Positions 15,336 through 32,755 of a stretch of DNA of 64,000 nucleotides are shown one piece after another; within the stretch, counting starts at the first letter, position 1, and every line of letters starts with the position of its first letter. The notes under the pieces were generated by a model, which did not search any database, was not told the origin of the DNA, and saw only the letters and a program-made list of their open reading frames with translations. The DNA is taken from assembly GCF_000265205.3 (NCBI RefSeq), contig NC_018000.1, positions 5,861,001 to 5,925,000 on the forward strand, written 5' to 3'. The DNA is from Sinorhizobium fredii USDA 257 (GTDB taxonomy: Bacteria > Pseudomonadota > Alphaproteobacteria > Rhizobiales > Rhizobiaceae). The position numbers and the translations under genes are program-made.

Positions 15336-15833
15336 CAAATTCGACCCGGTCGGTGATCACCACGGGAGCAACATTCAAGGCCGCGATGGTCAATTATCAT
15401 CCCGGCGCAAATGGCCGGGCTCTTGGCGCACCAGGCAGGGCTCGCCATTCAGTCGGGCTCGCGTCCGTTCGATCCGGTCGCCTTCGAATCGGCGCTGCAG
15501 CCCGGCATGCATATAGTCGGCGACGCGATCATCGGCGGGGTATGCCGAAATCCGCCTTCTGCGCTGACAGCCGGGCCAAAGCCTGCGCCTTTGCCATCGC
15601 GGCCGATCTCACCGAATCAGCGCGTTTCCCGGCGCATTTGTTCAACACCTGCCGCACCCTTCTCGGCCCGACGATGCGTTCAGCAACGCCATCAGCTTCA
15701 AGCTCGTCGACGGGAAGCTCAAGAGAGTCATCGGGTTTGTCAGCAAGGTCGAGGAAAGCTCCGAGGTCGCTGGCAGGCTGCGCTCGCGGCGGAAGCCGGA
15801 AATGACGCCTTCACGCACCATGTGTTTGGCTGA
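15336..15833 (+). pseudogene. Decayed C-terminal part of flavocytochrome c sulfide dehydrogenase (second copy)
   Basis: Pieces in three frames align in order with the C-terminal third of the intact flavoprotein at 31481-32755: RSVITTGATFKAA, then IPAQMAGLLAHQAGL and DPVAFESALQPGMHIVGDAIIGG, then MPKSAFCADSRAKACAFAIAADLT with FPAHLFNTCRTLLGP, then KLVDGKLKRVIGFVSKVEESSEVAGR and a final HHVFG stop. Several frameshifts make it non-functional and the N-terminal two thirds are absent. Residues differ at many positions from the intact copy, so this is an old or separately acquired paralogue. Its end lies 9 bp from the end of convergent fixI, the same arrangement as the reciprocal remnant at 31.2 kb. 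Confidence 0.82.
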
Positions 15834-15841
15834 AACGAAAC

Positions 15842-18028
15842 TCAACTCCGCTCGACGGCCGGACCGGCCATTGCGGAAATGCCGGTGCCATTGTGTATAC
15901 GCTCCGCCTTGGCGCCGGATCGTTGCTCCGGGACCAGCGCTGGAACAGGATCGGGCAGCCGCTCTAGCCGCAGCGAATTCACCACCACGAGGATGCTCGA
16001 GCCGGCCATGACCGCCGCCGCAAGGATTGGCTGCAGAAGTCCGAATGTTGCGAACGTCAGCGCGACAAGGTTGTAGCCGAACGCCCACATAAGGTTGGTC
16101 AAGATGGTCCTGCGGACCGCGCGGGCCACGTCGACGATCCAGGGCAGCATCCACAATCCATCCGCAGGCAGCACGAGCGCCGCAGTCTCGCGGGCGAGAT
16201 CGGTGGCGGAGCCGACGGCGATACCGACATCTGCGGCGGCCAATACCGGGCCGTCATTCAGTCCATCGCCGACCATCGCCACCGAACCGTGGTCATGGCG
16301 GAGCCGATCCAGGGCCAGCCGTTTGGCCTCCGGCGAAAGGCCCGCTTTGACGTCCTTGATCCCAACCAGGGCCGCGATCCGCTCCGCCGCTTGCGCCAAG
16401 TCGCCGGTCAACAGTGTGGCGTCGAGCCCGCGCTCACGCAGGGCCGCGATCGCGCCCTGCGCCTCTGGAAGCGGTGAGTCATCGAGCGACAGCACGGCTT
16501 GAACCCGCTCGCCCCAACCGACATAGACCACCGAATGACCGCTCGCCTCCAGCGTTCGCGCACGCTCGGTCAGGAACGGGGAAAGCGGCCAGCCCAGATC
16601 ATTCATCAACCTGCCGTTCCCTACCGCCACGGGCCGGCCTTCGGCGCTGCCGCGGATGCCACGGCCGGGAATCGTCCGAACATCGCGGGTGACGAGCGGC
16701 GTGATGTCCCGCTGAGCGGCGCCTGCGGCGATAGCCCGCGCCAGACCATGCTCGGAAAGCCGCTCCAGACCGGCGGCCCGCGCCAGTACTTCGTCGATGC
16801 CGACCTCCTCGCGGTCGACGCCGACGAGACGCGCTTTGCCCGCAGTCAGAGTGCCGGTCTTGTCGAAGGCGAGTAACCGTACACGCGCGAGAGTCTCGAG
16901 CACGCCGGGGTCGCGGACGAGGCAGCCGTGCCGCGCGAGCCGGCCGATGCCGAGAGAAGTCGCCATCGGAGCAGCGAGGCCGACGGCACAAGGACAGGCA
17001 ACCACCAGTACCGAGAGGCCAATCAGCAACGCCCTATCGAACGGCAATGACTGCGCCCAGTAAACGATCGTTAGACCGCCGAGGGCGAGGACCAGCGGCA
17101 CGGACACGCCCACGGCGCGGTCTGCAACGCGCTGGGTTGAACTGCGACGGCCCAGCGCTTCGCGCACCGACCGGCAAATCCGCGCCCAGCGGGTTGCGGT
17201 TCCGTCACCGCTGCTTTGTATCAGGAGCGGGCCGTCGATATTGATGCTACCGGCAATCACCTTGGAGCCGGCGCCCTTTGTCACTTGCCGGCTTTCTCCG
17301 GTAATCACGGCTTCATCGGTGTTCGATTCCCCCTCGACAACCACACCGTCGACCGGAATGCGCTCGCCTGGCCGGACCCGCACCAGCATGCCGGCCGACA
17401 CCTCCCGCACCGGACGGCGGATCTCTGCCGCGCCATGGACCACGGTCGCGCTCTCGCTTTCTGCGGCCAGAAGAGGTTCGAGGTCGCGCGCCGCCCTTGC
17501 GCGGCCAACAGCCTCGAGATAGCGGCCAACGGTGAATAGCATCAGCACCATCACGGCGGTGTCGAAATAGACATGCGTGCTGCCCTCGAACACGGCCAAT
17601 GCCGAATAGAGGTACGCGGCAGCGACGCCAAGCACGATGAGTGCCGACGACGTCACTCGTCCCTGAATGCCATTGAGCCACATTTCGCGCAGATAAGGTC
17701 CGCCGAGAATCACGACCGCCGGCGTCGCGAAGATCCAGAGCAAAAAGTGAACCCACGGCAGCACGCCCGCATCGACCCCGGTGAACGCGTCCGAATAGAG
17801 GAGGAGGCTGAACATCATGATATTCATGGAGAGAAAGCCTCCCACGCCGAGCTGGATCAGAAGCCAGGCGGCTTCCCACTCTTCGTGTCTGCCGCTCTTC
17901 ACCTGAAAGGCGATGCAGCAGCCGTAGCAGCAGAACGCGCAAGCCTCGCCGTTGAGCCTGCGCTCCATCGGGCGCAGGCCGACGGGCAGTGAACAGTGGC
18001 TACAGAGTATGTCGTCATGCGCAGTCAT
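15842..18028 (-). CDS. fixI: Copper-transporting P1B-type ATPase of cbb3 oxidase maturation (FixI/CcoI)
   Basis: This 728-residue heavy-metal ATPase exports copper needed for the CuB site of cbb3 oxidase. Sequence shows N-terminal cysteine sites CSHC and CCYGC, six to eight membrane helices, the TGES-type actuator (ITGESRQVTKG), the ion channel CPC (VVACPCAVGLAAPMATSLG), the phosphorylation site DKTGTLTAGK, the SEHGLA His-Pro-like loop and hinge VGDGLNDGPVLA. The start at 18028 overlaps the upstream TauE/SafE-type gene by ATGA; a longer frame upstream is out-of-frame shadow. It ends the cbb3 operon. The C-terminal tail past the last helix is longer than usual and low in homology. Confidence 0.92.
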   Translation of the reverse strand: MTAHDDILCSHCSLPVGLRPMERRLNGEACAFCCYGCCIAFQVKSGRHEEWEAAWLLIQLGVGGFLSMNIMMFSLLLYSDAFTGVDAGVLPWVHFLLWIFATPAVVILGGPYLREMWLNGIQGRVTSSALIVLGVAAAYLYSALAVFEGSTHVYFDTAVMVLMLFTVGRYLEAVGRARAARDLEPLLAAESESATVVHGAAEIRRPVREVSAGMLVRVRPGERIPVDGVVVEGESNTDEAVITGESRQVTKGAGSKVIAGSINIDGPLLIQSSGDGTATRWARICRSVREALGRRSSTQRVADRAVGVSVPLVLALGGLTIVYWAQSLPFDRALLIGLSVLVVACPCAVGLAAPMATSLGIGRLARHGCLVRDPGVLETLARVRLLAFDKTGTLTAGKARLVGVDREEVGIDEVLARAAGLERLSEHGLARAIAAGAAQRDITPLVTRDVRTIPGRGIRGSAEGRPVAVGNGRLMNDLGWPLSPFLTERARTLEASGHSVVYVGWGERVQAVLSLDDSPLPEAQGAIAALRERGLDATLLTGDLAQAAERIAALVGIKDVKAGLSPEAKRLALDRLRHDHGSVAMVGDGLNDGPVLAAADVGIAVGSATDLARETAALVLPADGLWMLPWIVDVARAVRRTILTNLMWAFGYNLVALTFATFGLLQPILAAAVMAGSSILVVVNSLRLERLPDPVPALVPEQRSGAKAERIHNGTGISAMAGPAVERS

Positions 18029-18753
18029 GCGGGATGTCCGTTCAGCCAGGCAAGGCCGATATGCGCGTGAGAAGGCAGGAGACCACGGCCGAGCGTGATG
18101 AGACCGAGCAAGAGAATAAAGCCACCGGCCAGCCGCACGCCGCGCCGCCGCGAGGCTGGCCCGAGTATCCGGCCAACGCCACCCATCATCAACATAGCGG
18201 GGAAGGTTCCCAGTCCGAACCATGCCATGACGAGGAACCCGGGAAGCGCTCCGGCGGTGCTCGCCGCCTGGGCGGCGAAGGCATAGACCAGGGGACATGG
18301 CAGGAAGCCGTTGAAAACGCCAAAGGCGAGCGGTGCGGCGCTGCTCCGGGCCGTCAACAGACCGCGCAGGGACAATGCAAATGTACTGCCGCCAAATCCG
18401 ATCGCGAGGCGATGAAAGACCTGCAACAAGCCGAAGAACTGCAACGCCATGGCAATCATGAGCAGGCCAGCGACGATCGCGAGAATTCGTTGGCCGATGT
18501 CGAGGGTGCCGTTCAAGAGCGGCACCGCCGTTAGACCTTGCGTGGTGCAGATGACCTGACCTATCGCACCCGCGAGCCCGCCCAGAAAGCAATAGGTTGT
18601 CAACCGGCCGGTATTATAGAGCAGGTGGCGAAGGACGGTTGCGCCTCCGCCTCGCTGATCGCGGCCCAGCGCGCAGGCAAAGCCGCCGCACATGCCGATG
18701 CAATGAAAGCTACCTGCAAATCCAGCGGCGAAGATCATGAGGTAGTAGATCAT
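18025..18753 (-). CDS. Sulfite exporter TauE/SafE family protein of the cbb3 cluster
   Basis: A polytopic membrane protein of about 242 residues with the conserved opening FAAGFAGSFHCIGMCGGFACALG, a double-cysteine GMCGGF motif typical of the UreH/DsbD-like transmembrane family placed beside cbb3 oxidase genes. Later blocks are YNTGRLTTYCFLGGLAGAIGQ, FNGFLPCPLVYAFAAQAASTAGALPGFLVM and WFGLGTFPAM. Family members in this position are linked to oxidase assembly or copper handling, although the name refers to sulfur transport. Start 18753 is chosen because it is 19 bp after the preceding small gene and begins the first helix; its ribosome site is weak. The stop overlaps fixI (ATGA). Confidence 0.85.
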   Translation of the reverse strand: MIYYLMIFAAGFAGSFHCIGMCGGFACALGRDQRGGGATVLRHLLYNTGRLTTYCFLGGLAGAIGQVICTTQGLTAVPLLNGTLDIGQRILAIVAGLLMIAMALQFFGLLQVFHRLAIGFGGSTFALSLRGLLTARSSAAPLAFGVFNGFLPCPLVYAFAAQAASTAGALPGFLVMAWFGLGTFPAMLMMGGVGRILGPASRRRGVRLAGGFILLLGLITLGRGLLPSHAHIGLAWLNGHPA

Positions 18754-18772
18754 TGGCGTTTTCGCTGCGCCG

Positions 18773-18895
18773 CTATAGCCGCACAAGATAGAAAAGATAG
18801 ATGATAAAGCCGACGGTGCAGCCGCCATAGATGAGGAAGCCGAGCATCTGCGGCAAGCCGGCGTCAGCGAGCTTGAAGACGGTGTCCTGTAGCAT
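18773..18895 (-). CDS. Small single-span membrane protein, 40 residues
   Basis: Too short for routine gene calling, but well supported. A strong AGGAGG lies 8 bases before the ATG at 18895. The product MLQDTVFKLADAGLPQMLGF continues into one hydrophobic helix (LIYGGCTVGFIIYLFYL) and stops after VRL. It sits inside the cbb3 operon between another tiny membrane gene and the TauE/SafE-like gene. By size and position it could be a CcoS-like or CcoQ-like accessory, but it lacks recognisable motifs of either. Function unknown. Confidence 0.65.
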   Translation of the reverse strand: MLQDTVFKLADAGLPQMLGFLIYGGCTVGFIIYLFYLVRL

Positions 18896-18909
18896 CCACG
18901 CCTCCTATG

Positions 18910-19017: not shown

Positions 19018-19048
19018 TCCTGCCTTACCGGCCCTTGCGACAGTCTTC

Positions 19049-19273
19049 TTAGAACAGACGGCCGGGGCCGAGCCCGCCCCAATAAACATACATGTAATAC
19101 AGCCCCCAGGCGAACAGCAGCACGTAGACGACGAGAAGCCATAGCGGAATGAATCCCACACGCGCCTGTATCAGGCCGCCGGCATAGTCCTCCAGTTCAG
19201 GGTGCGAGCTTTGACGCACATCCAGTTCCGGATGCCTCGGGCTCTCCGGATCGCTGCTCTGCAGATCGCTCAT
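19049..19273 (-). CDS. Small membrane protein of the cbb3 operon, about 74 residues
   Basis: A soluble acidic N-terminus (MSDLQSSDPES, then proline- and glutamate-rich) leads to a single helix VGFIPLWLLVVYVLLFAWGLYYMYVYWGG and a short tail. This layout resembles the cytochrome c oxidase-associated small subunits sometimes found with divergent cbb3 enzymes. Its start region overlaps the 3' end of the preceding gene by about 77 bp in another frame, which is unusual; one of the two ends may be mis-set or altered by a frameshift. It precedes the 35-residue membrane gene. Confidence 0.65.
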   Translation of the reverse strand: MSDLQSSDPESPRHPELDVRQSSHPELEDYAGGLIQARVGFIPLWLLVVYVLLFAWGLYYMYVYWGGLGPGRLF

Positions 19274-19421
19274 TTTCCATTTCCCTTTCAAAAAACCCAT
19301 TGGCGGCTTTGTCGGTGCCGCTCAACGCGCCGGATAGGACGCCCCAGATGAACAAGAACAGGGCCGCCAGGCTCATAAGCATGGCGCCCACATAGGGTCC
19401 GGTGACTTCAAAACCGAGCAT
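19197..19421 (-). CDS. Small membrane protein after ccoOP, possible CcoQ/CcoS-like subunit
   Basis: Seventy-four residues: one helix (GPYVGAMLMSLAALFLFIWGVLSGAL) followed by a charged stretch FFEREMENERSAEQ and a polar tail. It starts 3 bp after the CcoO-CcoP fusion gene, the place normally held by ccoQ or ccoS. The helix is CcoQ-like in size, but the conserved CcoS residues (YDDLEGPA-type) are not visible. Its tail overlaps the next gene by about 77 bp. It is most likely an oxidase accessory subunit. Confidence 0.65.
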   Translation of the reverse strand: MLGFEVTGPYVGAMLMSLAALFLFIWGVLSGALSGTDKAANGFFEREMENERSAEQRSGEPEASGTGCASKLAP

Positions 19422-19424
19422 GCG

Positions 19425-21089
19425 CTAACCTCCAGCGGGTGCCTGTTTCTCGCCAGGCGGAGCTGGCGGGCCGGACGCCGGCACCGACGGATCGGGCACA
19501 TAGGCTCGCTCAGGCTTGTCCGCGACCAGTTCCAGATTGTTCAGCGCCGCGCGGGCCTCCTTCGTGATCGAGAGCGGCTGCAGCGAGAGCGGGTCTTTAT
19601 AGGCGGAAAGCGCCACCACGAAATAGGAAAGCGCCCACCGGTCCTCATCCGGAAACGCATTCCGATAGGACGGCATCGGCGTGCCGCTGAGGCCGGTAGT
19701 TATCGTCCGGAAGATGTCCTCGACGGCCGGGCCAGACTTGAACTGGCCGCTGGTGAGGTCGGCCGGCACCATCGGGAAGCCGAGGTCATCCTTGAGGCCG
19801 GCGGCTTTCTCGCCATCGCCCTTGCCCCCTTGGCCGTGGCACTCCCAGCACTTCGCCGCCTGCCAAACCTCCTTGCCACGGTCCAGCATCGTCTGGGACG
19901 GGGTCGGCGGGCGCCCGATATATAACGGTGGGCCAGGCGGTTCCTCGACGAAGAAAGCGTAAGGAGCGGCGGGATCGGAACGGTCAACCGCGAGCTCATA
20001 CTTGATGTACTGGATCACCGCCAGCCGATCGTTGAGCGGCAGTTCGTACCAAGGGGGCATTGCTGTGCCGCGGATGCCGCGAGTAATGGTGCGCAGCATG
20101 TCGCCGTCCGTGGGCAGGGGCTCCTTTGTCAACCTGAACTTGAAGACTGCGGACGTGAAGTCCCTGGGCCGCTGGTTGAACATAAAGGTGGCGGCCGGCC
20201 CGTTGCCGTCGCCTTTGACACCGTGGCAACCGATGCAGCGGCGCTCATAGACTTCCTTGCCGTAAGCAATCCATTCCTCCGAGCGCGGCATAGTCGCATC
20301 CATGACCTCCAGGCTTTGCGGCTCGAAGAGATCGCGCCATTTACCCCGGTTCGTGCCGAGCTTCTGGACGTAGGAAACGAGCGCCGCCAACGCTTCCGTT
20401 TCCGCCGCGATGCTGACGGTTTCTCCTGTGTATTCGTCGTTCGGTGTCAGGATGATCGGCTTTCTTTCGCGCGCCTCCAGCGGCACGAACAGCAACCCGT
20501 CCGCATTCGGCGTCAACTGGATCGCTCGTTGGCTGTCGAAGTCGAACAGGCCTTCGGTGACCTCTGTCCTTTCCACGGTCCGATTGCCAGCGCCGTCGTT
20601 AACGATACGGACAGCTGCATCGGGCTCGTGGAAGAGGCCGCGATACGGCGCCATTATAGAGTCCGGCACGAGCATTCGCGGATCGTAGAAGTGCGCCAGG
20701 TGCCATTCGTCGCTGTATTTCAGGCCGACGCGCGTCAGGTCCGGTCCGATCCGGCGTGTGCCGAACAGGTGGGGCACGTCATAGGCGTATTCGCCCGCCT
20801 CGCTAACCGGTCCCCAGCGGCGGATCTCGCCGGTCACTGGCCGCACGAATTGCGAATGACAGTACCAGCAGCCCTCGCGCAGGTAAATGTTGCGGCCGCG
20901 AAGCTGCTGCTCGGTGTAGTCTGTCGCCTCTGAAACCATCCATTTCAGCTGGCCGAAATCCGTGCGCACCACCGAGGTCACGCGCGTAGTTCGCGAGGAT
21001 GGCTCCACGAAGGGCAGCACGCCCTGCGTGATCACCGCGAGGGTGATGCAGAAGACGCCGGCGAAAAGCGCGAAGAAGCGAACGTTCAC
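19425..21089 (-). CDS. cbb3 oxidase CcoO-CcoP fusion, three c-type haem sites
   Basis: One 554-residue protein joins a CcoO-like monohaem subunit to a CcoP-like dihaem region. Residues 1-25 form a membrane anchor. C74-W-Y-C-H78 in LREGCWYCHSQFVRP is the classic CcoO haem site, followed by GTRRIGPDLTRVG and a DPRMLVPDSIMAPYR methionine-ligand region. The second and third haem sites are C285-I-G-C-H289 and C414-W-E-C-H418, each followed by a MPPW- or MPSY-type methionine ligand. Separate CcoO and CcoP genes are the textbook state. The protein would carry electrons from a soluble cytochrome to CcoN. GTG start at 21089 overlaps the ccoN stop. The C-terminus is proline-rich and disordered. Confidence 0.9.
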   Translation of the reverse strand: MNVRFFALFAGVFCITLAVITQGVLPFVEPSSRTTRVTSVVRTDFGQLKWMVSEATDYTEQQLRGRNIYLREGCWYCHSQFVRPVTGEIRRWGPVSEAGEYAYDVPHLFGTRRIGPDLTRVGLKYSDEWHLAHFYDPRMLVPDSIMAPYRGLFHEPDAAVRIVNDGAGNRTVERTEVTEGLFDFDSQRAIQLTPNADGLLFVPLEARERKPIILTPNDEYTGETVSIAAETEALAALVSYVQKLGTNRGKWRDLFEPQSLEVMDATMPRSEEWIAYGKEVYERRCIGCHGVKGDGNGPAATFMFNQRPRDFTSAVFKFRLTKEPLPTDGDMLRTITRGIRGTAMPPWYELPLNDRLAVIQYIKYELAVDRSDPAAPYAFFVEEPPGPPLYIGRPPTPSQTMLDRGKEVWQAAKCWECHGQGGKGDGEKAAGLKDDLGFPMVPADLTSGQFKSGPAVEDIFRTITTGLSGTPMPSYRNAFPDEDRWALSYFVVALSAYKDPLSLQPLSITKEARAALNNLELVADKPERAYVPDPSVPASGPPAPPGEKQAPAGG

Positions 21090-22543
21090 CGCTCGAGCCC
21101 TCCCGCCGGGGACGGGATAGGGGCTCCCACCGGCCCGCGGACGCGTCGCGCCTCAGCCGCCGGGCTAGTCAGCGCGGTCAGCATCAGATTCACCACCAGC
21201 AGCGACATGCCGATATCCATGCTGATACCTGACAGGGTCCGCGCCAGCCAATAGGGCTTCACCCAGACGAGCGAGTCGAGCCATTCGACCCCATTCATCC
21301 ATTGATAACCCTGCTGCAGCCCGCCCGCTGTGAGGACCAGGCCCATGGTCGCGATCCCGACGGTGATCAGCCAGAACGACCAGTTGCCAAGTTTGAAGGA
21401 CCAGAGTTCGCGCCCGAACAGCCGCGGCCAAGTATAGACGAGGCCCCCCATCGCCCAGACGACGAAGGTGCCGAACACGGTGAGGTGCGAATGCGAGATG
21501 ACGAAATCGGTGAAATGGGTCGGCTGCTGCAGCTGCCGCAGCGCCTCGGTCGAACCTTGGAAGCAGCCGACGAGATACATGAGCGAGCCCATGATCAGGA
21601 ACTTCGCCGGCAGGTTCCTGCCGAACTCATGCCACTTGCCCATCATGGTGCCGAAGAAGTTCACCAGCACCGTCCACACCGGAATGATCAGCAGCATCGA
21701 CGTGACGACGGCCAAGGTCTCGGCCCAGTCGGCGATCGGACTGTAGAGGTAATGGTGGATGCCGACGAACGGGTAGAACAATGCCAGGGACCAGAAGCCT
21801 ACCAGCGAGAGCTTGTGGGCATAGAGCGGATTTCGCGCGCTGACCGGCAGGAAATAGTAGATGATCACGTAGCCTGCGGGCGTTAGCCACAGCCCGACGA
21901 TGTAGTGGAGGTAGAGGCCATGGAAGGCGGCGCTGTTGATGCCCGAGATCGTGTATGGCAGGATGAAGCTTCCAAGCACGAAGTTCATCGTCGTCCACAC
22001 GAAAGTGGCGATCAGGTACCATAGCGCGACATAGATTGCCGGCTCGAGCCGTCGACTGATCGTGATCAGGAACTGCGCGGTAGCAATAGCCACCACGATG
22101 AAGAATGCGACTTTCGCGTAGAGCGGAAGCTCTCCGGCTTCCAAACCGTCACTGTCGCCGATCAGCAAGCCGACCAAACCGGCAAGTGTTGCGATGTTCC
22201 AGACCCATGCAAGAAGAACCGACCACTCCGACCATATTACCCGCACCCCCGACAGACGCGGTACAAGATAGTAGCAAAGGCCGATGAAAAGCGTCGAGAA
22301 GGCGCCGAAGATGACTCCGTTGACGTGGACCGGGCGCAGCCGGCCGAAGGTGAGCTCGAGGTTCCCAGATCCGAGATAGTCGGGATAGTTGAAGGTGCTC
22401 GAGATCAAAACGCCGACGGATGGCGTCACCATGAGCCAGAACATGCCAAAATAAAGCCAGGTCCGCACGACCCGGTTGTCGACCAGCGCATCCAGGTCCA
22501 CATTCGCGAAGTTGCCGCGCAGTTCCATCCCAGTCTCTGCCAA
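21086..22543 (-). CDS. ccoN: cbb3-type cytochrome c oxidase subunit I
   Basis: The 485-residue catalytic subunit reduces oxygen to water with high affinity. It has about twelve helices and the full set of histidine ligands: RPVHVNG (low-spin haem b), LHYIVGLW, GIHHYLY (CuB pair) and SHSHLTVFG (haem ligands). The tyrosine in LALFYPFVGIHH matches the cross-linked tyrosine position. The sequence is a divergent ccoN type, with less similarity to Pseudomonas CcoN than is usual. It is the first gene of the minus-strand oxidase operon. No FNR/FixK box (TTGAT-N4-ATCAA) was found upstream, so oxygen control cannot be claimed. ccoG, ccoH and a typical ccoS are absent from the cluster. Confidence 0.92.
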   Translation of the reverse strand: MAETGMELRGNFANVDLDALVDNRVVRTWLYFGMFWLMVTPSVGVLISSTFNYPDYLGSGNLELTFGRLRPVHVNGVIFGAFSTLFIGLCYYLVPRLSGVRVIWSEWSVLLAWVWNIATLAGLVGLLIGDSDGLEAGELPLYAKVAFFIVVAIATAQFLITISRRLEPAIYVALWYLIATFVWTTMNFVLGSFILPYTISGINSAAFHGLYLHYIVGLWLTPAGYVIIYYFLPVSARNPLYAHKLSLVGFWSLALFYPFVGIHHYLYSPIADWAETLAVVTSMLLIIPVWTVLVNFFGTMMGKWHEFGRNLPAKFLIMGSLMYLVGCFQGSTEALRQLQQPTHFTDFVISHSHLTVFGTFVVWAMGGLVYTWPRLFGRELWSFKLGNWSFWLITVGIATMGLVLTAGGLQQGYQWMNGVEWLDSLVWVKPYWLARTLSGISMDIGMSLLVVNLMLTALTSPAAEARRVRGPVGAPIPSPAGGLER

Positions 22544-22925
22544 CGCATAGACCTCCCCGCGCGGTTCCTGGGCCGCACGACTGCTTCAACCCCACCGATG
22601 GTCGACTCGCGACGCGCTCCCTGCAGCCGGTGCCCGGTCTATCGACTAGACTAGTATTTACGTGGCACCAACACCGAGCCGGTGTTCGAACAGGTGATGT
22701 ACGCCTCGGGCGCCATCATCGCCTCCGATTGGGGATCGATCTTCTCGCCCTGGTTCGGCTTCTCGATGCACCAATAACCCGCTCATCGTCATAGAAGCCA
22801 CCTCATGAGGACGAGGGGCAACTTTTAAAAATAGAGCTAAAACAGTACCATGTCTAGCCACGGCGGAGATCGCGATTATGCAGTTGAGCGATGCGCCGAA
22901 AGTTGTCATCCGGAAGGAGGCGGCC
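22544..22925. other. Intergenic region with an unidentified coding remnant
   Basis: About 380 bp between ccoN and a small hypothetical gene on the other strand, so it should hold both promoters. On the plus strand, roughly 22663-22785 encodes TEPVFEQVMYASGAIIASD followed by WGSIFSPWFGFSMHQ and a stop. It reads like the true C-terminus of a protein but has no start or upstream part. I do not recognise it. No FNR or FixK box was found. Confidence 0.4.
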
Positions 22926-23168
22926 ATGCAAAGACATACAAAGGAAGCTTCGGAGCTTAAGGAATTGATCCTCGCGGATCTTCATAAGGAGCCGGGATGC
23001 GAGTACGTCACAGATTTTGTGATTCAGCGGCTCGAAACGAGGGAGAACGGGGCAAACTGGACTGTCAAATATCTGGATACTAATCAAGATAAGGTCTGCG
23101 AGACAATTCTCATTAATATTGCGCGAATGTTGCAGCTCAGCTTCGACCTTCCCGAACGCCGGTCGTGA
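22926..23168 (+). CDS. Conserved-looking small hypothetical protein, 80 residues
   Basis: ATG at 22926 is preceded by AAGGAGGCGG, a strong ribosome site, so this start is preferred over an upstream one at 22878. The product begins MQRHTKEASELKELILADLH and contains PGCEYVTDFVIQRLETRENG and a NWTVKYLDTNQDKV strand. It appears soluble, alpha/beta, with no signal peptide or known motif. It is divergent to ccoN. Function unknown. Confidence 0.6.
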   Translation: MQRHTKEASELKELILADLHKEPGCEYVTDFVIQRLETRENGANWTVKYLDTNQDKVCETILINIARMLQLSFDLPERRS

Positions 23169-25112: not shown

Positions 25113-25192
25113 GTCTCCCTCCCTTTCTTGCGTCGCGCATCTGAGCGGATGACCAAAGGACGCAACGACGCTTTTTGATTGGCGCGGTCTTT

Positions 25193-26482
25193 TTAGGGCA
25201 ACGCGGTACCTCTTCTTTCCGCCGCAGAGGCGGTACTTTCGCGTGGCAGCCCGAGTTCATCCCAAACCTTGCTGAGCGCGGCCACAAGTTGGCAGATCAT
25301 GATGTCGTCATGGCACGGAGAGGGCGTGATGCGCAGCCGCTCGGTTCCCTTCGCCACGGTAGGATAGTTGATCGGCTGAATGTAGATGCGATGCCCGGCG
25401 AGCAGCATGTCGCTCGCCGACTTGCACTTGGCGGGATCGCCGACCCGCACTGGAACGATGTGACTGCCACTGGCCATGACCGGCAGCCTCGCCCCGATTA
25501 GCTCTGCCTTTACCCGCTGAACGCGGTCCTGATGAGCGCGTCGCTCAGAGTGCGACACCTTCAGATGGCGGATCGCGGCGGTGGCCGCGGCACAAATTGG
25601 TGGAGGTAAAGCCGTGGTGAAGATGAACCCCGGCGCGTAGGAGCGAACCGCATCGATGAGCGTGGCGGTTCCCGTTATGTAGCCACCAAGACAGCCGAAC
25701 GCCTTGGCAAGCGTTCCTTCGATAACATCGATCCGCTGCATGACGCGGTCTCGTTCAGCGATGCCGCCACCGCGCGGGCCGTACATGCCGACGGCATGGA
25801 CCTCATCGAGGTAAGTCATGGCCCCGTAACATTCGGCAAGATCGCAGATGCGGCGAATCGGAGCGATGTCGCCATCCATCGAATAGAGGCTTTCGAAAAC
25901 GATCAATTTCGGCCGCACCCGCCCGGCCGCTCTCAGCAATTCCTCGAGATGGCAGAGATCACTGTGACGGAAGATCCGCTTTTCGCATCCAGACTGTCGT
26001 ATACCCTCGATCATCGAATTATGATTGAGCGCATCCGAGAGGATGACACAATCGGGGACCAGCTTCGCAATCGTGGATATCCCTGTCTGGTTTGAGATAT
26101 ATCCTGAGGTGAAAACCAGCGCCGCTTCCTTGTGATGAAGATCCGCGAGTTCGATCTCCAGCTCGACCAGCGGATGACTGGTTCCGGATATATTGCGCGT
26201 GCCCCCCGCGCCTGTTCCCAGACGCTTCGCTGTTTCAGTCATGGCGCCGATCACACTCGGGTGTTGCCCCATGCCCAGATAGTCGTTGGAACACCAGATA
26301 ACGACTTCCTTCGACCCGCCCGATCCGTGCCAGATTGCGCGCGGAAAATTCCCGGCGATCCGTTCGAGGTCTGCGAAGACACGATACCGATGCTCGGCAT
26401 GGAGCTGGGCCGTCGCGTCGGCGAAGAACCGATCGTATCGAGCTGTCACGAACCTTTGAGCGCGAGACAAGCTTTCAGACAT
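25193..26482 (-). CDS. hemA: 5-aminolevulinate synthase
   Basis: A PLP enzyme of about 429 residues that condenses glycine and succinyl-CoA to 5-aminolevulinate, the first step of haem synthesis in alphaproteobacteria. Blocks include [66 protein letters not shown] and [16 protein letters not shown], with the PLP lysine in the last. The start at 26482 has an excellent AAGGAGG site; a TTG start 24 bp upstream is less likely. It lies 36 bp after the SCO1 gene. A hemA linked to cytochrome genes probably boosts haem supply and is likely a second copy in the genome (inference). Confidence 0.92.
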
Positions 26483-26518
26483 GGCCTCCTTGTCTCCGAG
26501 TTGCAACCGTTCGACGAT

Positions 26519-27127
26519 TCACTCGCGATGCTTCGTCATCACTTGCCGCAGCATATCGGCCATGGAATCACCGGACATACCGGCCCGCAAGCCGCGAACG
26601 AACTTGCCCTGAGGGTCCATGACATAGATGTATGTGCTGTGGTCAACGATATAATCGGCGCCTGTTTCCAGCAGATGGTGGTCGCTGTAAGCGCCATATT
26701 TCTGCGCCACCGCGGCGATCTGCTCCCCGCTTCCGCTCAATCCCAGGATCCGCCGGTCGATGGCGCCGGTATATTGCCCCATGACAGCGGGCGTATCGCA
26801 TTCGGGATCGACTGTGATGAAGATTGGCTGCACCTTCGCTGCCTCGGGGCCAAGTCTGTCGAGAGCGATGGCAATCTCGCTCAGCGTCGTTGGACAAAGA
26901 CTCGGACACGAGGTGTAACCGAAGAAGACCAGCATCCATCTGCCGCGGAACTTCGCGTCGGTCACCACGGCGCCACCCGGTTCGATGAGGCTGAACGGTC
27001 CGCCCACGGTCACCGGCGACGCTGCGAATCCAGGCACGGTGCTTACGAATACCGCAGCCGAAAACAATCCATGGAAGACCGCGCGTCGGCAAGTCGAAGC
27101 CCAAAGCAGGCCGTTCCGCCTCTCCAT
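26519..27127 (-). CDS. SCO1/SenC family copper chaperone
   Basis: The 202-residue protein has an N-terminal export helix (AVFHGLFSAAVFVSTVPGFAA) and a thioredoxin-like domain. The copper-binding residues are C74 and C78 in FFGYTSCPSLCPT and H163 in YIVDHSTYIYVMD. It delivers copper to oxidase centres or acts as a thiol reductant in the periplasm. The start at 27127 follows GAGGAGG; longer frames are rejected. It heads the minus-strand SCO1-hemA-groEL unit and is divergent from the cupredoxin-like gene. It likely serves the cbb3 oxidase or the copper protein next door. Confidence 0.9.
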   Translation of the reverse strand: MERRNGLLWASTCRRAVFHGLFSAAVFVSTVPGFAASPVTVGGPFSLIEPGGAVVTDAKFRGRWMLVFFGYTSCPSLCPTTLSEIAIALDRLGPEAAKVQPIFITVDPECDTPAVMGQYTGAIDRRILGLSGSGEQIAAVAQKYGAYSDHHLLETGADYIVDHSTYIYVMDPQGKFVRGLRAGMSGDSMADMLRQVMTKHRE

Positions 27128-27358
27128 GTCGTGCCTCCTCATCGCAGGCCAACATCCTTTGCTGCACGCGTTCAGCGGCCATGCCAACCGGATGCCTGGC
27201 GAGGCCGAAGAACTGCTCCGATAGCTCAGCCTTGCAATGGATACGAAGAGATATGACGCGGCCGGGAGCTTCCCGCTGGCGTCTATCTATATTCGTCGCC
27301 AGCCCTGCCAAAATCGCGATTTCGCCTTGATATTAGAATCATTCTGAAGGAAAATACA

Positions 27359-28108
27359 ATGTTTCCTTCAAGGCGAGGGAGGCTTGCTGTGGCAAAGCAC
27401 CGCTTCTTGTCTAAGTTTCTTGGAACCGCTGCGGTTATGATGATCGCACCGCCGGCTCTATCCTATGAGGTAAGCGCCGTGACCGGAGGCGGGTCGATTG
27501 AAGGCGTCATCGTCTATCGCGGCGACGTTCCGACGACCAAAATCATACCGACGAAAGATGTTGAGGTTTGCGGGCAACCGCGGGACGAACCGCTAATCCG
27601 CGTTGGCGCCGATCAGGCGGTCGAAAGCGCGGTTGTATATCTGGTCGACGTCGCATCGGGAAAGGAATGGCCGGCACCCGGCAAGACGCCCGAGCTAAAC
27701 AACCTGAAATGCCGGTTTGAACCCCAGGTGCAGGTGATCGCGGCAGGCCCGCTCGATGTGATCAACTCGGACCCGGTGCTTCACAACACGCACGGCTTTT
27801 ACGGCAAGCGCACCGCCTTTAACCTGGCCCTGCCGAACAAAGGCCAGCGCATACCGGTAGAATTGCCGCGGCCGGGCACCGTCCGTATCGACTGCGACGC
27901 ACATGGTTGGATGGAAGGCTGGATTTACGTGGTGGACAATCCCTACTACGCGGTCACCGGCGCTGACGGCAAGTTTTCCATCACTGACATCCCGCCGGGC
28001 GACTACAAGCTCGTGGCAGTGCAGCCCTTTATCGGACCCATAGAAATGCCCGTTAAAGTCGAGGGCGGGAAAGCCACCAAGTTCGACATCGAGCTCAAGA
28101 AGAAGTAG
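27359..28108 (+). CDS. Periplasmic cupredoxin-like protein
   Basis: A 249-residue exported protein (signal helix FLGTAAVMMIAPPALS). The middle carries a plastocyanin-like pattern: H142 and H145 in VLHNTHGFYGK and C179, H182, M185 in RIDCDAHGWMEGW, a credible type 1 copper site. The last 60 residues (YYAVTGADGKFSITDIPPGDYKLVA) form a carboxypeptidase-regulatory-like beta sandwich. Similar proteins are annotated as methylamine-utilisation-like or plastocyanin-like. It starts the plus-strand set with the metallophosphoesterase and cytochrome and could be a soluble electron carrier. GAAGGAAAA precedes the ATG. Copper binding is predicted only. Confidence 0.75.
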   Translation: MFPSRRGRLAVAKHRFLSKFLGTAAVMMIAPPALSYEVSAVTGGGSIEGVIVYRGDVPTTKIIPTKDVEVCGQPRDEPLIRVGADQAVESAVVYLVDVASGKEWPAPGKTPELNNLKCRFEPQVQVIAAGPLDVINSDPVLHNTHGFYGKRTAFNLALPNKGQRIPVELPRPGTVRIDCDAHGWMEGWIYVVDNPYYAVTGADGKFSITDIPPGDYKLVAVQPFIGPIEMPVKVEGGKATKFDIELKKK

Positions 28109-28227
28109 CATAGTAACGTGTCGGCGTGAGAGACGTAAAATAAAGAACAAGAAAAGCACTGACTGGCTTACATGCCATGTCTGCCTCTGAGCCGAGTTCT
28201 TCTTTCGGCCTAAGAGGAGGATTCGTC

Positions 28228-29367
28228 ATGTCTGACGAGCTTGATCGCATTCGCCGCGAAATGCATTCGGTACTGCAACCCGAAGGGGTTCGGCCCGATG
28301 ACTCGCTGAAAATTACCCGCCGCACCTTTATCCACGGATCCCTGATCTTCGGCGCGGCAACTGTCGGTCAGGCCTTCGCCTGGTGGCCGCTGCTCAACAC
28401 GCTCGATATTGCTCACGCGGCCGAGACGCCCTTCAAGTTTGCCTGGATATCCGACACCCATCTCTATCCAAGATCCCTGAACACACGCTTCGTAGACAAG
28501 GTGGTGCGTGCGGCCCAAGAAGTCCAGGCGATGGATCCGCCGGCCGATTTCCTGATTTTCGGTGGTGACCTGGCCCAACTTGGAAAGATAGAAGAGCTGG
28601 AACTCGGCGTCGACCTGCTGAAGGAGATCAAGATCCCGAAACATTACATCCCCGGCGAGCACGACTGGTACCTCGACATGGGCAAGAAATGGGGCGAGCT
28701 GTTTGGCCAGCCCAACTGGACCTTCGACCATAAGGGTGTGCGCTTCATTGGCCTCGACACCGTCAGCCGCGGACCGGACTATTGGACGGCCAAGAACATG
28801 ACGCCCGAAGAGCGGATGGGGCATATGGCCACACTCGACGGCACCGTCGCCGGACCATGGGCGGGCGTCGGCCGGGATCAGCTCGACTGGATGGAAAAGA
28901 CCCTCGCCGACTGGGACAAGCAGCGCCCCGTCGTGATCTTCAGCCACAACCCCCTTTACGAGTACTATCCGCCGTGGAATTTCTGGGTGCGTGACTGGCG
29001 CGAAGTCCATGAGGTGCTGAAACCGTATGCCAAGGTCACGAACATTCACGGTCACGTGCACCAGGTCCTCTACAACGAGATCGGGACGTTGCGTTCGATT
29101 GGGATGTTGGCAACGTCCTGGCCGTGGCCCTATGCCCCGGAAGGTTTGCCGAAGCTCACCAAGCCGATGATCCGTGTCGACCCCGGCGATCCCTATGATG
29201 GAGTCGGCTGGAGCAAGATCGATGTGGCGGCCAACGACCAGTTGGAAACGGAATATATCATGTGGGGGCGCAAGGAAGTCTTCGTGCAATCCCCGGAAGA
29301 CCATGACAAGCATGTTTCTGAGGTTATTCGCCCAAGGATCGCCGACAACATGTGGCCATATCGTTAG
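28228..29367 (+). CDS. Tat-exported calcineurin-like metallophosphoesterase
   Basis: The 379-residue protein has a twin-arginine signal (ITRRTFIHGSLIFGAATVG, R31-R32) after an unusual 30-residue polar lead. The full binuclear-metal motif set is present: D76-T-H78 in WISDTHLYP, GGDLAQLG, PGEHDWYLD, FSHNPLYEY and IHGHVHQV. It should therefore be an active periplasmic hydrolase. The start at 28228 has AGAGGAGG upstream; a frame from 28177 is rejected. It is followed 13 bp later by a SoxA-like cytochrome. The fold is the one used by SoxB, but SoxB's own family motifs and length (about 560) are not seen; the substrate is unknown. Confidence 0.85.
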   Translation: MSDELDRIRREMHSVLQPEGVRPDDSLKITRRTFIHGSLIFGAATVGQAFAWWPLLNTLDIAHAAETPFKFAWISDTHLYPRSLNTRFVDKVVRAAQEVQAMDPPADFLIFGGDLAQLGKIEELELGVDLLKEIKIPKHYIPGEHDWYLDMGKKWGELFGQPNWTFDHKGVRFIGLDTVSRGPDYWTAKNMTPEERMGHMATLDGTVAGPWAGVGRDQLDWMEKTLADWDKQRPVVIFSHNPLYEYYPPWNFWVRDWREVHEVLKPYAKVTNIHGHVHQVLYNEIGTLRSIGMLATSWPWPYAPEGLPKLTKPMIRVDPGDPYDGVGWSKIDVAANDQLETEYIMWGRKEVFVQSPEDHDKHVSEVIRPRIADNMWPYR

Positions 29368-29380
29368 CGGAGGAAGGGTC

Positions 29381-29851
29381 ATGACAACCCATTCGAAAAT
29401 CCGCTGTTCACTGCGGCGCTTCCCCTTGATTGGGGGAATTGCCATTGCCGCCGTTTTCGCGGGACCGACCAGCGCCCATAAAGATCCGGTAAAGCAGGAG
29501 CAGTTGAAGCTCTACCAGGAAGTGTTCATGGAAGAGGTCAGGAAGGGTGACCTTCTCTTCCATGGCGACCAAAAGATGGCCGAGCAGCTAGGTGTTGCCG
29601 ACGACCTCTCGAAAACTGGCATGGCCTGCGCGATGTGTCATCCCATGGCGTCCGACACACACCCCCAATCCTTCCCGAAGTTCCAAGCGCAGATCGCTAA
29701 GTTCGCTACCCTCCGCGACATGATCAACTGGTGCATCGAGAAGCCGAACCAGGGCGTGAAGATCGATCCGGAATCCGAGGCAATGAAGGCGCTCGAAGCC
29801 TACATCACGTGGTCCAACACCGGTTCGGTGCTGCAGCCGGGCAAGTTTTAA
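29381..29851 (+). CDS. Exported monohaem cytochrome c, SoxA-like
   Basis: A 156-residue protein with a signal peptide (FPLIGGIAIAAVFAGPTSA) and one haem site, C83-A-M-C-H87. The following segment, THPQSFPKFQAQIAKFATLR then DMINWCIEKPNQG and EAMKALEAYITW, resembles the C-terminal part of SoxA, including the INxC-type cysteine. It is shorter than SoxA (about 250-290) and has only one haem. It lies 13 bp after the metallophosphoesterase and is surely co-expressed. It could take electrons from a sulfur or other periplasmic substrate. GGAGGAAGGG precedes the ATG. Confidence 0.75.
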   Translation: MTTHSKIRCSLRRFPLIGGIAIAAVFAGPTSAHKDPVKQEQLKLYQEVFMEEVRKGDLLFHGDQKMAEQLGVADDLSKTGMACAMCHPMASDTHPQSFPKFQAQIAKFATLRDMINWCIEKPNQGVKIDPESEAMKALEAYITWSNTGSVLQPGKF

Positions 29852-29947
29852 GGCGGCCGCTGTCCGCATGAGCGCTACGGCCATCCTTGCGTGAACCCGA
29901 ACTGGCGCGGGCAAGGGAGGCATGTTTTGTGACCTTGCCCCCAAGTT

Positions 29948-30877
29948 TTATCCAGTTTTGAGTTCGCTCCAGCGGTTTTGGGTTGCTGTATTCGGGGCGG
30001 TAGCGGCGGGTTGCGGTGCGGAGCCATTCCGGCTGCGCAGCACCGCATCACGTCGCGGGTTGATTGTCTGAGCGAACTCGGCCGGTGTCATCCAGCCAAG
30101 TCCAGAGTGTGGTCGATGATCGTTGTAATCGCTGCGCCAGTTTGAAAGCGCGGATCGAGCATGGGTCAGTGACGAGAAGAGAGTTTCATTCAGGAGCTCG
30201 TCTCGCAGCCGCCCATTGAAGCTTTCGATGAAGGCGTTCTGTATCGGCTTGCCCGGCGCAATATAATGCCAGTCCACTTTGGCCCCGTCCGTCCATTGCA
30301 GGATCGCGTTGCTGGTGAACTCGCTGCCATTGTCGCTGACGATCATCTTCGGCTTGCCGCGCCCCTCGATGATCCGGTCAAGCTCACGGGCAACCCGCAG
30401 GCCGGAAAGCGACGTATCGGCGACGAGGCCCAAGCATTCCCTGGTGCAATCGTCGACGACCGTCAAAATTCGGAACCGGCGTCCATCGGTGAGTTGATCC
30501 GACACGAAGTCCAGTGACCAGCGATCATTGGCGGCAAGCGGGATCAGCATCGGTGCGCGTGTGCCGATCGCTCGCTTGCGGCCACCACGTTTGCGCACTG
30601 TCAGCTTCTCTTCCCGATAGAGCCGGAAGAGCCGCTTATGGTTCACAAGGTGACCCTCACGCCTGAGCAGCACATGAAGGCGTCGATATCCAAAGCGGCG
30701 ACGTTCATGCGCCAGCGCCTTCATCCGCTCGCGAAGGTCATGGTCATCGCTGCGCCTGGTTTCGTAACGGATCGTCATCCGGCAAAAGCCGATGGCTTTA
30801 CACGCCCGCCGTTCACTCATCTGGTGGCGATCCATCAGATGAGCGACAGCGTTCCGCCTTGCTGCGGGCGTCACCAC
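29948..30877 (-). CDS. IS407-group transposase OrfB (DDE integrase domain)
   Basis: The 309-residue catalytic part has the IS3-family HTH_21 segment near the start and an rve-type core with DDE residues: the Asp in [11 protein letters not shown], the Asp in [12 protein letters not shown] and the Glu in [14 protein letters not shown]. The first codon in frame is GTG; the protein is normally made as a frameshift fusion with OrfA. It is intact. Confidence 0.92.
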
Positions 30878-31137
30878 TTCTTTCCCAAAAGGTCTTTTAA
30901 AGCGGCATTGTCGAGCATGGCGTCTGCCAGAAGCCGCTTCAGTTTCGTGTTCTCGTCCTCAAGCGTCTTCAGCCGCTTGGCCTCAGACACGTCCATCCCG
31001 CCGAACTTGGCCTTCCACTTGTAGATGCTGGCATCGCTGACACCGTGCTTGCGGCAGAGCTCCGAGACCGGCGTGCCCGCTTCATGCTCCTTCAGAATGC
31101 CGATGATCTGTTCGTCCGTAAAACGGTTGCGTTTCAT
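30871..31137 (-). CDS. IS407-group transposase OrfA
   Basis: The 88-residue DNA-binding subunit starts [20 protein letters not shown] and has a helix-turn-helix ([18 protein letters not shown]) and a leucine-zipper-like segment ([20 protein letters not shown]). It overlaps OrfB by 7 bp in the -1 frame near GGGAAAGAAG, where a programmed -1 frameshift could make the OrfAB fusion transposase. Confidence 0.92.
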
Positions 31138-31205
31138 TCCCTGGTCCTCTCAATGGGCCAGAGCTTACTTCAAAATGGACTATTTCAACGGGGCAAGGTC
31201 ATTTG

Positions 31206-31455
31206 GCAAAGACTGCACTCGTCTTCCCGAAGGGGGGATGATGCCTTGGATCGACGTCGCCCGCACGGTTCGCCGGACCGTTCTCACCAATCTCCACTGG
31301 GCCTGGCTACAATCTCATCGCATTGACGCCGCGCATTGACGCCGCGTCCATCCGATTTCTGAAGCCGATTCTCGCGGCGGCCGTCATGTCGGATCGAGCG
31401 TTCGTCGTTATGCATTCGATGGGCTCCAGCGCCTGCCGGACCCGGATCCATCACG
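31206..31455 (+). pseudogene. Decayed C-terminal part of a second fixI
   Basis: In successive frames the plus strand gives MMPWIDVARTVRRTVLTNLHWA, shifting to GYNLIALT, then FLKPILAAAVMSDRAFVVMHS, then GLQRLPDPDPS. These match in order the last 90 residues of intact FixI (LPWIVDVARAVRRTILTNL, GYNLVALT, LLQPILAAAVM, LERLPDPV). Frameshifts and an insertion make it non-functional. Homology begins within a few bases of the insertion sequence but lies outside its target duplication, so truncation came before the insertion. It abuts the 3' end of the intact flavocytochrome c gene. Confidence 0.82.
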
Positions 31456-31480
31456 CTGGTCGCCAGACCCAGTTATTTCT

Positions 31481-32755
31481 TCAGGAACCTCCGCCGAACA
31501 CGTCCGCAGTGAAGGCGGAATACCAGCCCACGGCGTGATGGGCGGTGCGGCGGCGGACCTCAGCGCTCTCGCCCACCTTGCTGATGAACATTCTTACGGT
31601 TTTTATTCTTCCGCCCTCGGGTACGAAGGTGAGGGCATTGGTGAAAGCGTCGTGGGGCGCCAGAAACGTGTAGCACGAGTTGAACAGGTGCGGCGGAAAC
31701 TGACGCGAGCCCGTGAGGGAAGCCGCAATGGCAAAAGCGCATGCTTTGGCCTGGCTGTTGGCAGAGAAGGCAGACTTCGGCATGTCGCCGCCGATAATCG
31801 AGTCGCCTACAACGTGGATGCCGGGCTGCAACGTCGACTCGAACGTCACAGGATCGACTGGGCACCAGCCGGATGCGTCAGTGAGACCTGCCTTCTCGCC
31901 GATGAGCCCCGCCTTTTGGGCTGGAATAATATTGGCGACCGCCGCCCTGAACGTCTCGCCTTCTGTCACCACCGATCGCGCCGCAACATCTACGGCTTTG
32001 ATTGCCCCGATGAACTGAGACGGTAGCCATTCAATCATGCCCGGATAGTGGCGCGACCACGCATCCTGAAACAGTTCCTGACCTGAAAACTTATCCTTCG
32101 CGTCGAGAATGAGTATCTTCGATTTGGGTTTGAACTGCTTGAAATAGTAAGCGACCAGCGAGGCCCGCTCATATGGGGCCGGCGGGCAGCGGAACGGGTT
32201 TGGAGGCGCAGCGATAACGAACACACCGCCGTCGTCCATGCTTTTGAGTTGTCGGCGCAGCAGTTCACTCTGGGGTCCGGCAATCCAGGCATGCGGCATG
32301 ATCTTTGCCGCTGCCTCATCATAGCCCTCGATCTCGCCGAACTTGAAGGCGATCCCCGGTGCGACGACGAGGCGGTCATAGGAGAGCTTTGTGCCGCCGC
32401 GAAGTTCGACAGCCCTTCCTGCAGGATCGATAGCCACCGCGCTGTCGCGGATGATCGTTATGCCGTGGCCTTCGGCCAGCATCTCCAGGCCGAAAGTCAG
32501 GGAGGCGAGCGAGCGAAGACCGGCAAGATAGAGGTTGCTGGAGAAGCAAGTGACGTGGGTGGAGTTCGGTTCGACCAGTGTGACGTCAATTGACTTCATG
32601 TCGCCGAGGTATCGGGCAACCGTTGCGCCGCCGATGCCGCCGCCGATCACTACAACTTTAGCCCGCCCCTGACCGCGAACAATGTGTGGCGCGGCCAGCG
32701 CCAGCAGCGCTCCTCCGATCAGGCCGCCGATCTGGCGACGCGTCCAATCCGTCAC
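31481..32755 (-). CDS. fccB: Flavocytochrome c sulfide dehydrogenase, flavoprotein subunit
   Basis: A 424-residue FAD protein that oxidises sulfide to sulfur in the periplasm and passes electrons to its cytochrome partner. It has a Tat signal (TRRQIGGLIGGALLALAAP), the FAD motif VVVIGGGIGGATVARYL near residue 34, and the two redox cysteines of the family, C190 in PFRCPPAPYE and C361 in FNSCYTFLAP. VVGDSIIGGDMPKSAF is the second FAD contact. Length is normal. It overlaps the small cytochrome gene by ATGA. Such proteins are also named SoxF when near sox genes. Confidence 0.92.
   Translation of the reverse strand: MTDWTRRQIGGLIGGALLALAAPHIVRGQGRAKVVVIGGGIGGATVARYLGDMKSIDVTLVEPNSTHVTCFSSNLYLAGLRSLASLTFGLEMLAEGHGITIIRDSAVAIDPAGRAVELRGGTKLSYDRLVVAPGIAFKFGEIEGYDEAAAKIMPHAWIAGPQSELLRRQLKSMDDGGVFVIAAPPNPFRCPPAPYERASLVAYYFKQFKPKSKILILDAKDKFSGQELFQDAWSRHYPGMIEWLPSQFIGAIKAVDVAARSVVTEGETFRAAVANIIPAQKAGLIGEKAGLTDASGWCPVDPVTFESTLQPGIHVVGDSIIGGDMPKSAFSANSQAKACAFAIAASLTGSRQFPPHLFNSCYTFLAPHDAFTNALTFVPEGGRIKTVRMFISKVGESAEVRRRTAHHAVGWYSAFTADVFGGGS

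Follow-up and report, generated by a model that had tools for sequence, protein, structure and literature searches.

Organization of the locus

The window analyzed here is a 64,000-nucleotide stretch of the Sinorhizobium fredii USDA 257 genome (contig NC_018000.1, positions 5,861,001 to 5,925,000), in which a composite gene cluster lies between positions 15,336 and 33,922. Assigned by family, its genes are predicted to encode a divergent cbb3-type oxidase, a FixI-type ATPase, a TauE/SafE-like protein, FccAB, SoxYZ, a SoxA-like cytochrome, SCO1, HemA, GroEL and a metallophosphoesterase. The cluster comprises two arms, hereafter the left or immigrant arm (B) and the right or native arm (A).

The left arm is bordered by a phage-type integrase fragment (14665..15267, plus strand; PF00589, E 1.5e-9) and begins with a frameshifted fccB relic covering about codons 258-424 (15336..15833, plus). 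Five open reading frames (ORFs) follow on the minus strand. The first is an intact gene for a fixI/ccoI-type copper P-type ATPase (15842..18592), 92-95% identical at the amino acid level to 9 of 13 Mesorhizobium loci; its start is uncertain, the S. meliloti ml21 homologue being annotated as 2,154 nt. A TauE/SafE-like (DsbD_2) membrane protein gene, named after the S. meliloti annotation (18025..18828; PF13386), is followed by an 83-residue ORF between the ATPase and oxidase genes (19049..19300) that is 98% identical in amino acids to Mesorhizobium locus L044 and had no match in the family search. The oxidase is encoded by ccoOP, a fusion of ccoO to cytochrome c domains (19425..21089; PF02433, PF13442), and ccoN, a divergent cbb3-type subunit I (21086..22543; PF00115). 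With 227.7 bits against an NCBIfam ccoN cut-off of 583.15, ccoN does not qualify as a canonical cbb3 (FixNOQP) subunit, and its closest other homologues among 33 genomes of the genus are only about 31% identical.

The inner part of the left arm is made of remnants. The last ~40 codons of the B copy of the SoxA-like cytochrome (22664..22773, minus) form an 85% inverted repeat of positions 29729-29838. Next comes a remnant of the cpd/SCO1 intergenic spacer (22780..22861, plus), 76-84% identical to 8 Mesorhizobium stretches and collinear with them; mpp-B, cpd-B and SCO1-B are gone from both sides of it. A small intact ORF of 96 residues, whose true start is probably downstream (22878..23168, plus), is 83-88% identical in amino acids in 7 of 10 Mesorhizobium stretches, and 91-92% with its flanks (22864-23202), again in 7 of 10; it had no match in 6 native stretches, and family searches assigned it no family. 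This ORF is near full length in all eight composite clusters of the genus, despite the loss of its neighbors. The hemA-B relic and the spacer leading to groEL-B (23206..23387, plus) are collinear with the Mesorhizobium hemA region, the relic consisting of two pieces (23206-23252 and 23244-~23335) fused by a deletion. Finally, approximately the first 27 codons of groEL-B (23388..23472, plus) abut the stop codon of the intact groEL.

The right arm starts with this intact groEL (23472..25112, minus; TIGR02348), which shares 76-86% amino acid identity with the cluster copies of four native genomes versus 68-71% with Mesorhizobium copies. It continues with hemA, for 5-aminolevulinate synthase (25193..26506, minus; PF00155), so named in S. 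meliloti ml21, and a gene for a SCO1/SenC copper chaperone (26519..27187, minus; PF02630, E 2.4e-46). On the plus strand lie cpd, for a carboxypeptidase-regulatory-like protein identified from the S. meliloti annotation and a PF13620 match below cut-off (27359..28108), the metallophosphoesterase gene mpp (28177..29367; PF00149), 94-96% identical in amino acids to 4 native loci versus 79-88% to 13 Mesorhizobium loci, and the intact SoxA-like cytochrome c gene (29381..29851; PF21342 on a longer ORF in this reading frame, TIGR04484 under its cut-off). The native ccoN leader and first codons (29852..29929, plus), aligned with sister clusters and with native genome G019, form the left side of a deletion scar in cluster A, and a fixI relic that resumes at about codon 805 (31202..31455, plus) lies on the other side. 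Within this scar, beside the fixI relic, sits an IS3-type element with two ORFs (29930..31201, minus; PF01527, PF13683, PF00665). It has the helix-turn-helix and rve transposase ORFs, the inverted ends (TGACCTTGCCCC) and the 4-bp target duplication (TTTG) of the IS3 family, and none of the 7 sister composites carries one. The outer end of the arm, on the minus strand, is formed by fccB, for the flavocytochrome c sulfide dehydrogenase flavoprotein (31481..32755; PF21706, PF09242), fccA, for a c-type cytochrome (32752..33123; PF00034 above cut-off, PF13442 narrowly below), soxZ (33125..33451; PF08770) and soxY (33473..33922; PF13501). The family domains of flavocytochrome c sulfide dehydrogenase and SoxYZ were thus detected. 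Two plus-strand marker frames, h374 and h314, were rejected as wrong-strand frames of SCO1 and soxYZ, with nonsynonymous (dN) about equal to synonymous (dS) distances, and the dS values obtained for them carry no information.

Relics and mirrored gene order

The entire 64 kb was compared with itself in six frames (E up to 1e-4), and a separate repeat search was made. The self-comparison matched only the relic and intact copies of fccB, fixI and the cytochrome gene, some in antisense frames, plus one frame pair at 36.3-37.6 kb, where two overlapping plus-strand frames (36291-37624) are 32% alike across 164 residues. The best self-match of the fccB relic has an E value of 1.4e-16 and its match to Mesorhizobium 2e-177; the fixI relic matches the window at 7e-6 and the equivalent relic in 7 sister loci at 5e-48 to 5e-8. 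The groEL relic gave no match in the six-frame self-comparison at this threshold. It aligns with the window groEL over 74 nt at 70% (E 1.3e-7), and extends a match of ~230 nt that covers the end of hemA and continues into groEL. This match is present in 9 of 10 Mesorhizobium stretches (E 1e-45 to 7e-63), at 81-84% identity in eight and 77% in one. The middle stretch, 22,780-23,472, is interrupted yet collinear Mesorhizobium DNA, with spacer, small ORF, hemA pieces and groEL start.

A preliminary description of this DNA had reported decayed copies of fccB, fixI and groEL facing their intact counterparts. All three relics are real, as judged from the self-comparison and from the Mesorhizobium and sister matches, and the mirrored order that it described for the two arms is confirmed. 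Its count was too low: relic stretches total six (fccB, fixI, SoxA-like cytochrome, hemA, groEL and one spacer), the cytochrome, spacer and hemA pieces having been overlooked, and their order is inverted about position 23,472.

Two parental kinds of cluster

We mapped the window genes by tblastn on named loci and tabulated 25 of 80 loci, of which 13 are from Mesorhizobium, 5 are composites, 4 are native and 3 fall in none of these groups. Uninterrupted clusters are of two kinds that share a single order, fccA fccB > < fixI < ccoOP < ccoN < cytochrome < metallophosphoesterase < cpd, with the cluster groEL lying farther out in both. One kind survives in Mesorhizobium, the other in S. fredii, S. 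shofinae and Rhizobium. Eight of the 13 Mesorhizobium loci (L044, L047, L048, L050, L051, L054, L057, L089) are close to the window in fixI (93-95%), ccoOP (95-96%) and ccoN (97-98%), and distant in fccB (66-68%) and the cytochrome (74-80%). The native loci L040-L043 (S. shofinae, Rhizobium sp., S. fredii, R. sullae) display the reverse pattern, with fccB at 80-81% and metallophosphoesterase at 94-96% versus ccoN at 78-81% and fixI at 62-64%. A single unbroken alignment of 7,450 bp, with 94.8% identity to Mesorhizobium L057, spans the left arm (15,343-22,773) from its fccB relic across ccoN to the relic of the cytochrome gene. The right arm aligns with L057 in the opposite orientation, at 67-78%. 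Neighboring genes of the window therefore have conflicting origins, Mesorhizobium-type on the left and native on the right.

Four other Mesorhizobium loci (L045, L046, L052, L058) resemble the window in fixI (87-92%) but not in ccoN and ccoOP (76-79%), and oxidase subunits may thus have been exchanged within Mesorhizobium as well. Loci L051, L052 and L089 contain about 2.1 kb of extra DNA between fccB and fixI (about 11270-13400) and a second copy of the final ~90 bp of fccB; in L089, the single locus viewed, ORFs of the extra stretch resemble globin and redoxin by eye.

Relics group with the opposite parent

In blastn comparisons, the fccB relic matches Mesorhizobium L047, L054 and L057 at 91% and the intact fccB of the window at 67.5%, and the cytochrome relic is 93% identical to L048, L054 and L057 versus 85% to the intact copy. 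The fixI relic shows the converse affinity, with 80% identity to S. fredii USDA 205 versus 70% to its intact partner. In the fccB tree (31 rows), the relic forms a clade with 12 of the 13 Mesorhizobium rows (support 100/99.7), and its pairing with the intact copy is rejected by the approximately unbiased test (p-AU 1.2e-4). In the fixI tree (36 rows), from which the G014 relic was omitted as too short, seven relics form a clade (96/86) that joins six native rows (99/98); the intact fixI tails of the eight composites form a clade on a very short branch (98/84) inside the Mesorhizobium group, and a tree that groups the window relic with the intact fixI of composites is rejected (p-AU 6e-35). The eight cytochrome relics also form a clade (100/100; 37 rows), and pairing the relic with its own intact copy is rejected (p-AU 5e-6). 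For fccB, fixI and the cytochrome, the two arms are thus not each other's closest relatives.

Distribution and shared scars in the genus

Searches for ccoN and fccB in 33 genomes of the genus identified the composite in 8, an uninterrupted native cluster in 4 and neither in 21, one of which, G009, is only 70% complete. The composite is thereby present in 8 of the 12 cluster-bearing genomes. Architecture was read in the eight composites and two natives; the other two natives (G023, G030) were represented by L040 and L042, whose contig positions coincide.

In the immigrant, mpp and cpd were lost together with the 5' end of the cytochrome gene by a deletion whose left breakpoint is identical within 2 bp in all eight composites; the three copies on plasmids that were inspected, from S. 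meliloti ml21, S. meliloti Rm41 and S. americanum CCGM7, share this breakpoint. At the native scar, the first ccoN codons run directly into fixI at about its codon 805 in four of the eight (G000, G001, G003, G026); further deletion removed this junction in the other four, a small one shared by G004, G010 and G027 and a larger one in G014. These shared deletion scars indicate a single origin of the composite. Its subsequent erosion proceeded differently in each species: among the composites compared, groEL-B codons are kept by the window only, G026 retains more of SCO1-B and hemA-B, and fccB-B remnants vary in length, from G003, where none was found, up to the window, with about 500 bp; the G010 stretch examined ends at this point of the cluster.

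Silent distances and probable later spread

Silent distances were calculated by the Nei-Gojobori method for the 28 pairs of composites, with rpoB as reference. For fixI, ccoOP and ccoN combined, they are 0.09-0.15 among composites, 0.07-0.15 to four Mesorhizobium loci and 0.88-1.06 to two natives. With rpoB, composites differ from one another by 0.11-0.48 and from two Mesorhizobium genomes by 0.56-0.69, and the immigrant arm is less divergent than rpoB in 27 of the 28 pairs. By rpoB, natives interleave with composites, G030 being nearest to the window (0.24) and G019 nearest to G004 (0.17); rpoB was not found in G023, which was left out of this comparison. In PLSDB, 28 plasmid records hold at least 80% of window positions 21,500-25,000 in one place. 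All but one are S. meliloti replicons (27, of 1.2-1.8 Mb); the other is plasmid C of S. americanum CCGM7. The two S. meliloti replicons that were opened are both named pSymA.

In the window, the composite is located near the right end of an insertion of about 71.5 kb (contig 1, about 5,824,750-5,896,211; window 1-35211) at the 3' end of a tRNA-Ser(CGA) gene (35215..35304, minus), which marks the right end of the island. The site is empty in two relatives, where the flanks overlap by 16 bp (G001) or lie 119 bp apart (G003), and the far end carries a 13-bp direct repeat that is weak by itself (E 0.16). Insertion at a tRNA 3' end, an empty site in relatives and a terminal repeat are features shared with tRNA-associated genomic islands. 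An intact integrase was not found among the island ORFs, which were scanned in part, and only the fragment at 14665-15267 was seen. The low divergence of the immigrant arm, the varied locations, the pSymA copies and the tRNA-Ser island all point to later spread; the distances are most simply explained by transfer of the finished composite between species and by recombination between its native arm and resident clusters.

The part of the island at about 2,740-14,580 of the window occurs on a replicon without rpoB in G001, G003 and G019. On contig 89 of G027 (66301-78135, about 79600-96500), the left-flank DNA of the window lies on the right of the composite with an integrase fragment between them, so that composite and flank may have travelled together. 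In G001, G003 and G019, the left flank lies on the replicon lacking rpoB and the right flank on the rpoB replicon, which had raised the idea of a chromosome-chromid fusion. This idea was dropped, as in four relatives the rpoB replicon carries the DNA found about 49-61 kb to the left of the window, making the left flank part of the island.

Origin of the composite

Two xenologous clusters very probably met in inverted orientation, lost genes reciprocally and left a chimeric cluster for sulfur oxidation and cbb3-type respiration. The collinear remnants show that a cluster of Mesorhizobium type (B), extending at least from fccB to groEL, came to lie beside the native Sinorhizobium-type cluster A, inverted and meeting it at groEL. 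The scars and remnants show that the oxidase block of A was then deleted between the first ccoN codons and codon ~805 of fixI, and that several deletions took from B the 5' end of the cytochrome gene, mpp, cpd, SCO1 and the greater part of fccB, hemA and groEL; B also lost fccA and soxYZ if they were ever present. Each gene is now left in one copy in the window, with CcoN, CcoOP, the FixI-type copper ATPase and the helper membrane proteins derived from B, and FccAB, SoxYZ, the SoxA-like cytochrome, SCO1, HemA, GroEL and the metallophosphoesterase from A. The composite would have formed once and then passed between Sinorhizobium species on pSymA-type plasmids, residing here on the tRNA-Ser island. 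This single formation, the spread on plasmids and islands and the recombination of the native arm are supported, not proven.

The preliminary description had likewise proposed two related clusters in inverted orientation that lost complementary genes to leave one composite set, and this proposal holds, both parents being found uninterrupted in relatives and the relics siding with the opposite parent. It called the event ancient, which applies to the divergence of the two cluster kinds (silent distance ~0.9 to 2.0) and not to their meeting, which the immigrant arm (0.07-0.15) dates as recent. It inferred from the differences between relic and intact copies that this is no recent copy; the arms are not an old copy of one cluster either, but two xenologous clusters. 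The relics form one collinear series in relatives rather than insertions at unrelated sites, and close relatives match them far better than distant homologues do.

Several observations weigh against this history. Two intact clusters were found together in none of the 33 genomes of the genus, so that the two-cluster intermediate is inferred. The shared scars could instead have spread through recombination between composites. In the best cytochrome tree, the relics form no clade with the 12 Mesorhizobium rows, a grouping that is not rejected (p-AU 0.09), and their grouping with the nearest 8 has a support of just 70/0; this tree by itself is therefore no proof of the donor. The groEL relic alone is too short to place and is placed only via the adjoining hemA tail. 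The thirteenth Mesorhizobium locus, L049 (strain L-8-3), carries a differing version of the cluster (fixI 63%, ccoN 77%), and its position outside the fccB relic clade indicates that the donor was one Mesorhizobium group, not the whole genus. In the native arm, silent distances exceed those of rpoB in 6 of the 28 pairs for groEL, in 8 for cpd, mpp and the cytochrome combined (7 of them with G003, at 0.72-0.88) and in 1 for fccB and fccA. With a native arm this uneven, movement as one unit requires recombination in that arm.

A repeated, parallel origin of the composite in different species is very unlikely. The outer edges, several deletions and the locations do vary by species, and the native-arm distances are uneven, as noted above; yet the mpp breakpoint is common to all eight composites, the native scar is common to the four that still show it, and the cytochrome and fixI relics each form a clade. 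We consider it very improbable that only the oxidase block was imported into the native cluster and later shifted by an inversion, without two full clusters ever coexisting. The immigrant genes that survive are indeed limited to fixI, the helper genes, ccoOP, ccoN and one small ORF. However, the block is flanked in donor order by immigrant fccB on one side and by what is left of the immigrant cytochrome, hemA and groEL genes on the other, and the native fixI tail and ccoN start persist at the native site. An inverted duplication of one cluster in place, with later divergence and reciprocal loss, would account for arms that mirror each other in gene order; it is refuted by the relic trees, the fccB, fixI and cytochrome relics being closer to the other lineage than to their partners, with own-pair trees rejected. 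Independent insertion of random fragments is rejected by the single collinear series of relics and by the relic trees.

The reciprocal loss left subunit pairs unmixed, CcoN/CcoOP, FccA/FccB and SoxY/SoxZ each having a single origin. The oxidase and its membrane assembly proteins come from one genus, and the electron donors and most soluble helpers from the other. We tentatively raise the possibility that a whole foreign cluster was resolved by modules rather than gene by gene, and that one such chimera spread on symbiotic plasmids and an island to become the commoner form in Sinorhizobium; block deletions of neighboring genes, without selection, would yield the same module split.

Predicted function and relation to known systems

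Electrons from a sulfur compound would likely pass through FccAB and SoxYZ to cytochrome c, the oxidase and oxygen in a putative chain whose oxidase would receive copper and haem from helpers of both origins, as judged from the gene families. In comparisons of the window with comparable sister composites, dN is lower than dS for 11 genes of both arms, with the h314 frame excluded, and the composite is thus under constraint. The hemA gene, only partial in G004 and G026, seems dispensable.

Mosaic operons, reportedly described by Omelchenko in 2003, consist of neighboring genes of differing origin. The composite resembles them in that neighboring genes of the same pathway differ in origin and a foreign gene supplants its native orthologue. 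It differs in that the foreign copy lies inverted beside the native cluster instead of in the native position, and in that relics of both parents are legible. Displacement in situ thus does not apply, since the foreign block lies inverted beyond groEL and the native site holds only a scar. The reduction of the native ccoN-fixI block to this scar does represent loss of a native orthologue after acquisition. In the definition of xenologous gene displacement given in the relevant passage of PMC1274311, acquisition is similarly followed by loss of the native copy, here of ccoN, ccoOP and fixI; unlike the process outlined there, that in the composite was two-way, most acquired genes being lost in favor of native ones.

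The composite may also be connected with accessory sulfur-oxidation genes already recorded in these species, whose SoxEF we tentatively take to be FccAB. Such soxYZEF-like genes, listed for 7 of 33 S. meliloti and 2 of 2 S. fredii (PMC4053727, Table 3), are probably the same as those of the composite; the portions of that paper concerned with them mention neither a composite origin nor relics. A two-parent origin is not described in titles or abstract openings among the literature matches listed.

Mosaic operons and xenologous displacement are known kinds of event. The case for a mosaic operon usually rests on trees that conflict. At this locus, the two parents, the relics of each, the scars and several stages of decay are legible in living relatives, so that much of the order of events is visible. 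Because the chimera has been kept, with its genes under constraint, in several species including S. meliloti, it constitutes a natural test of whether parts of the respiratory chains of two genera cooperate.

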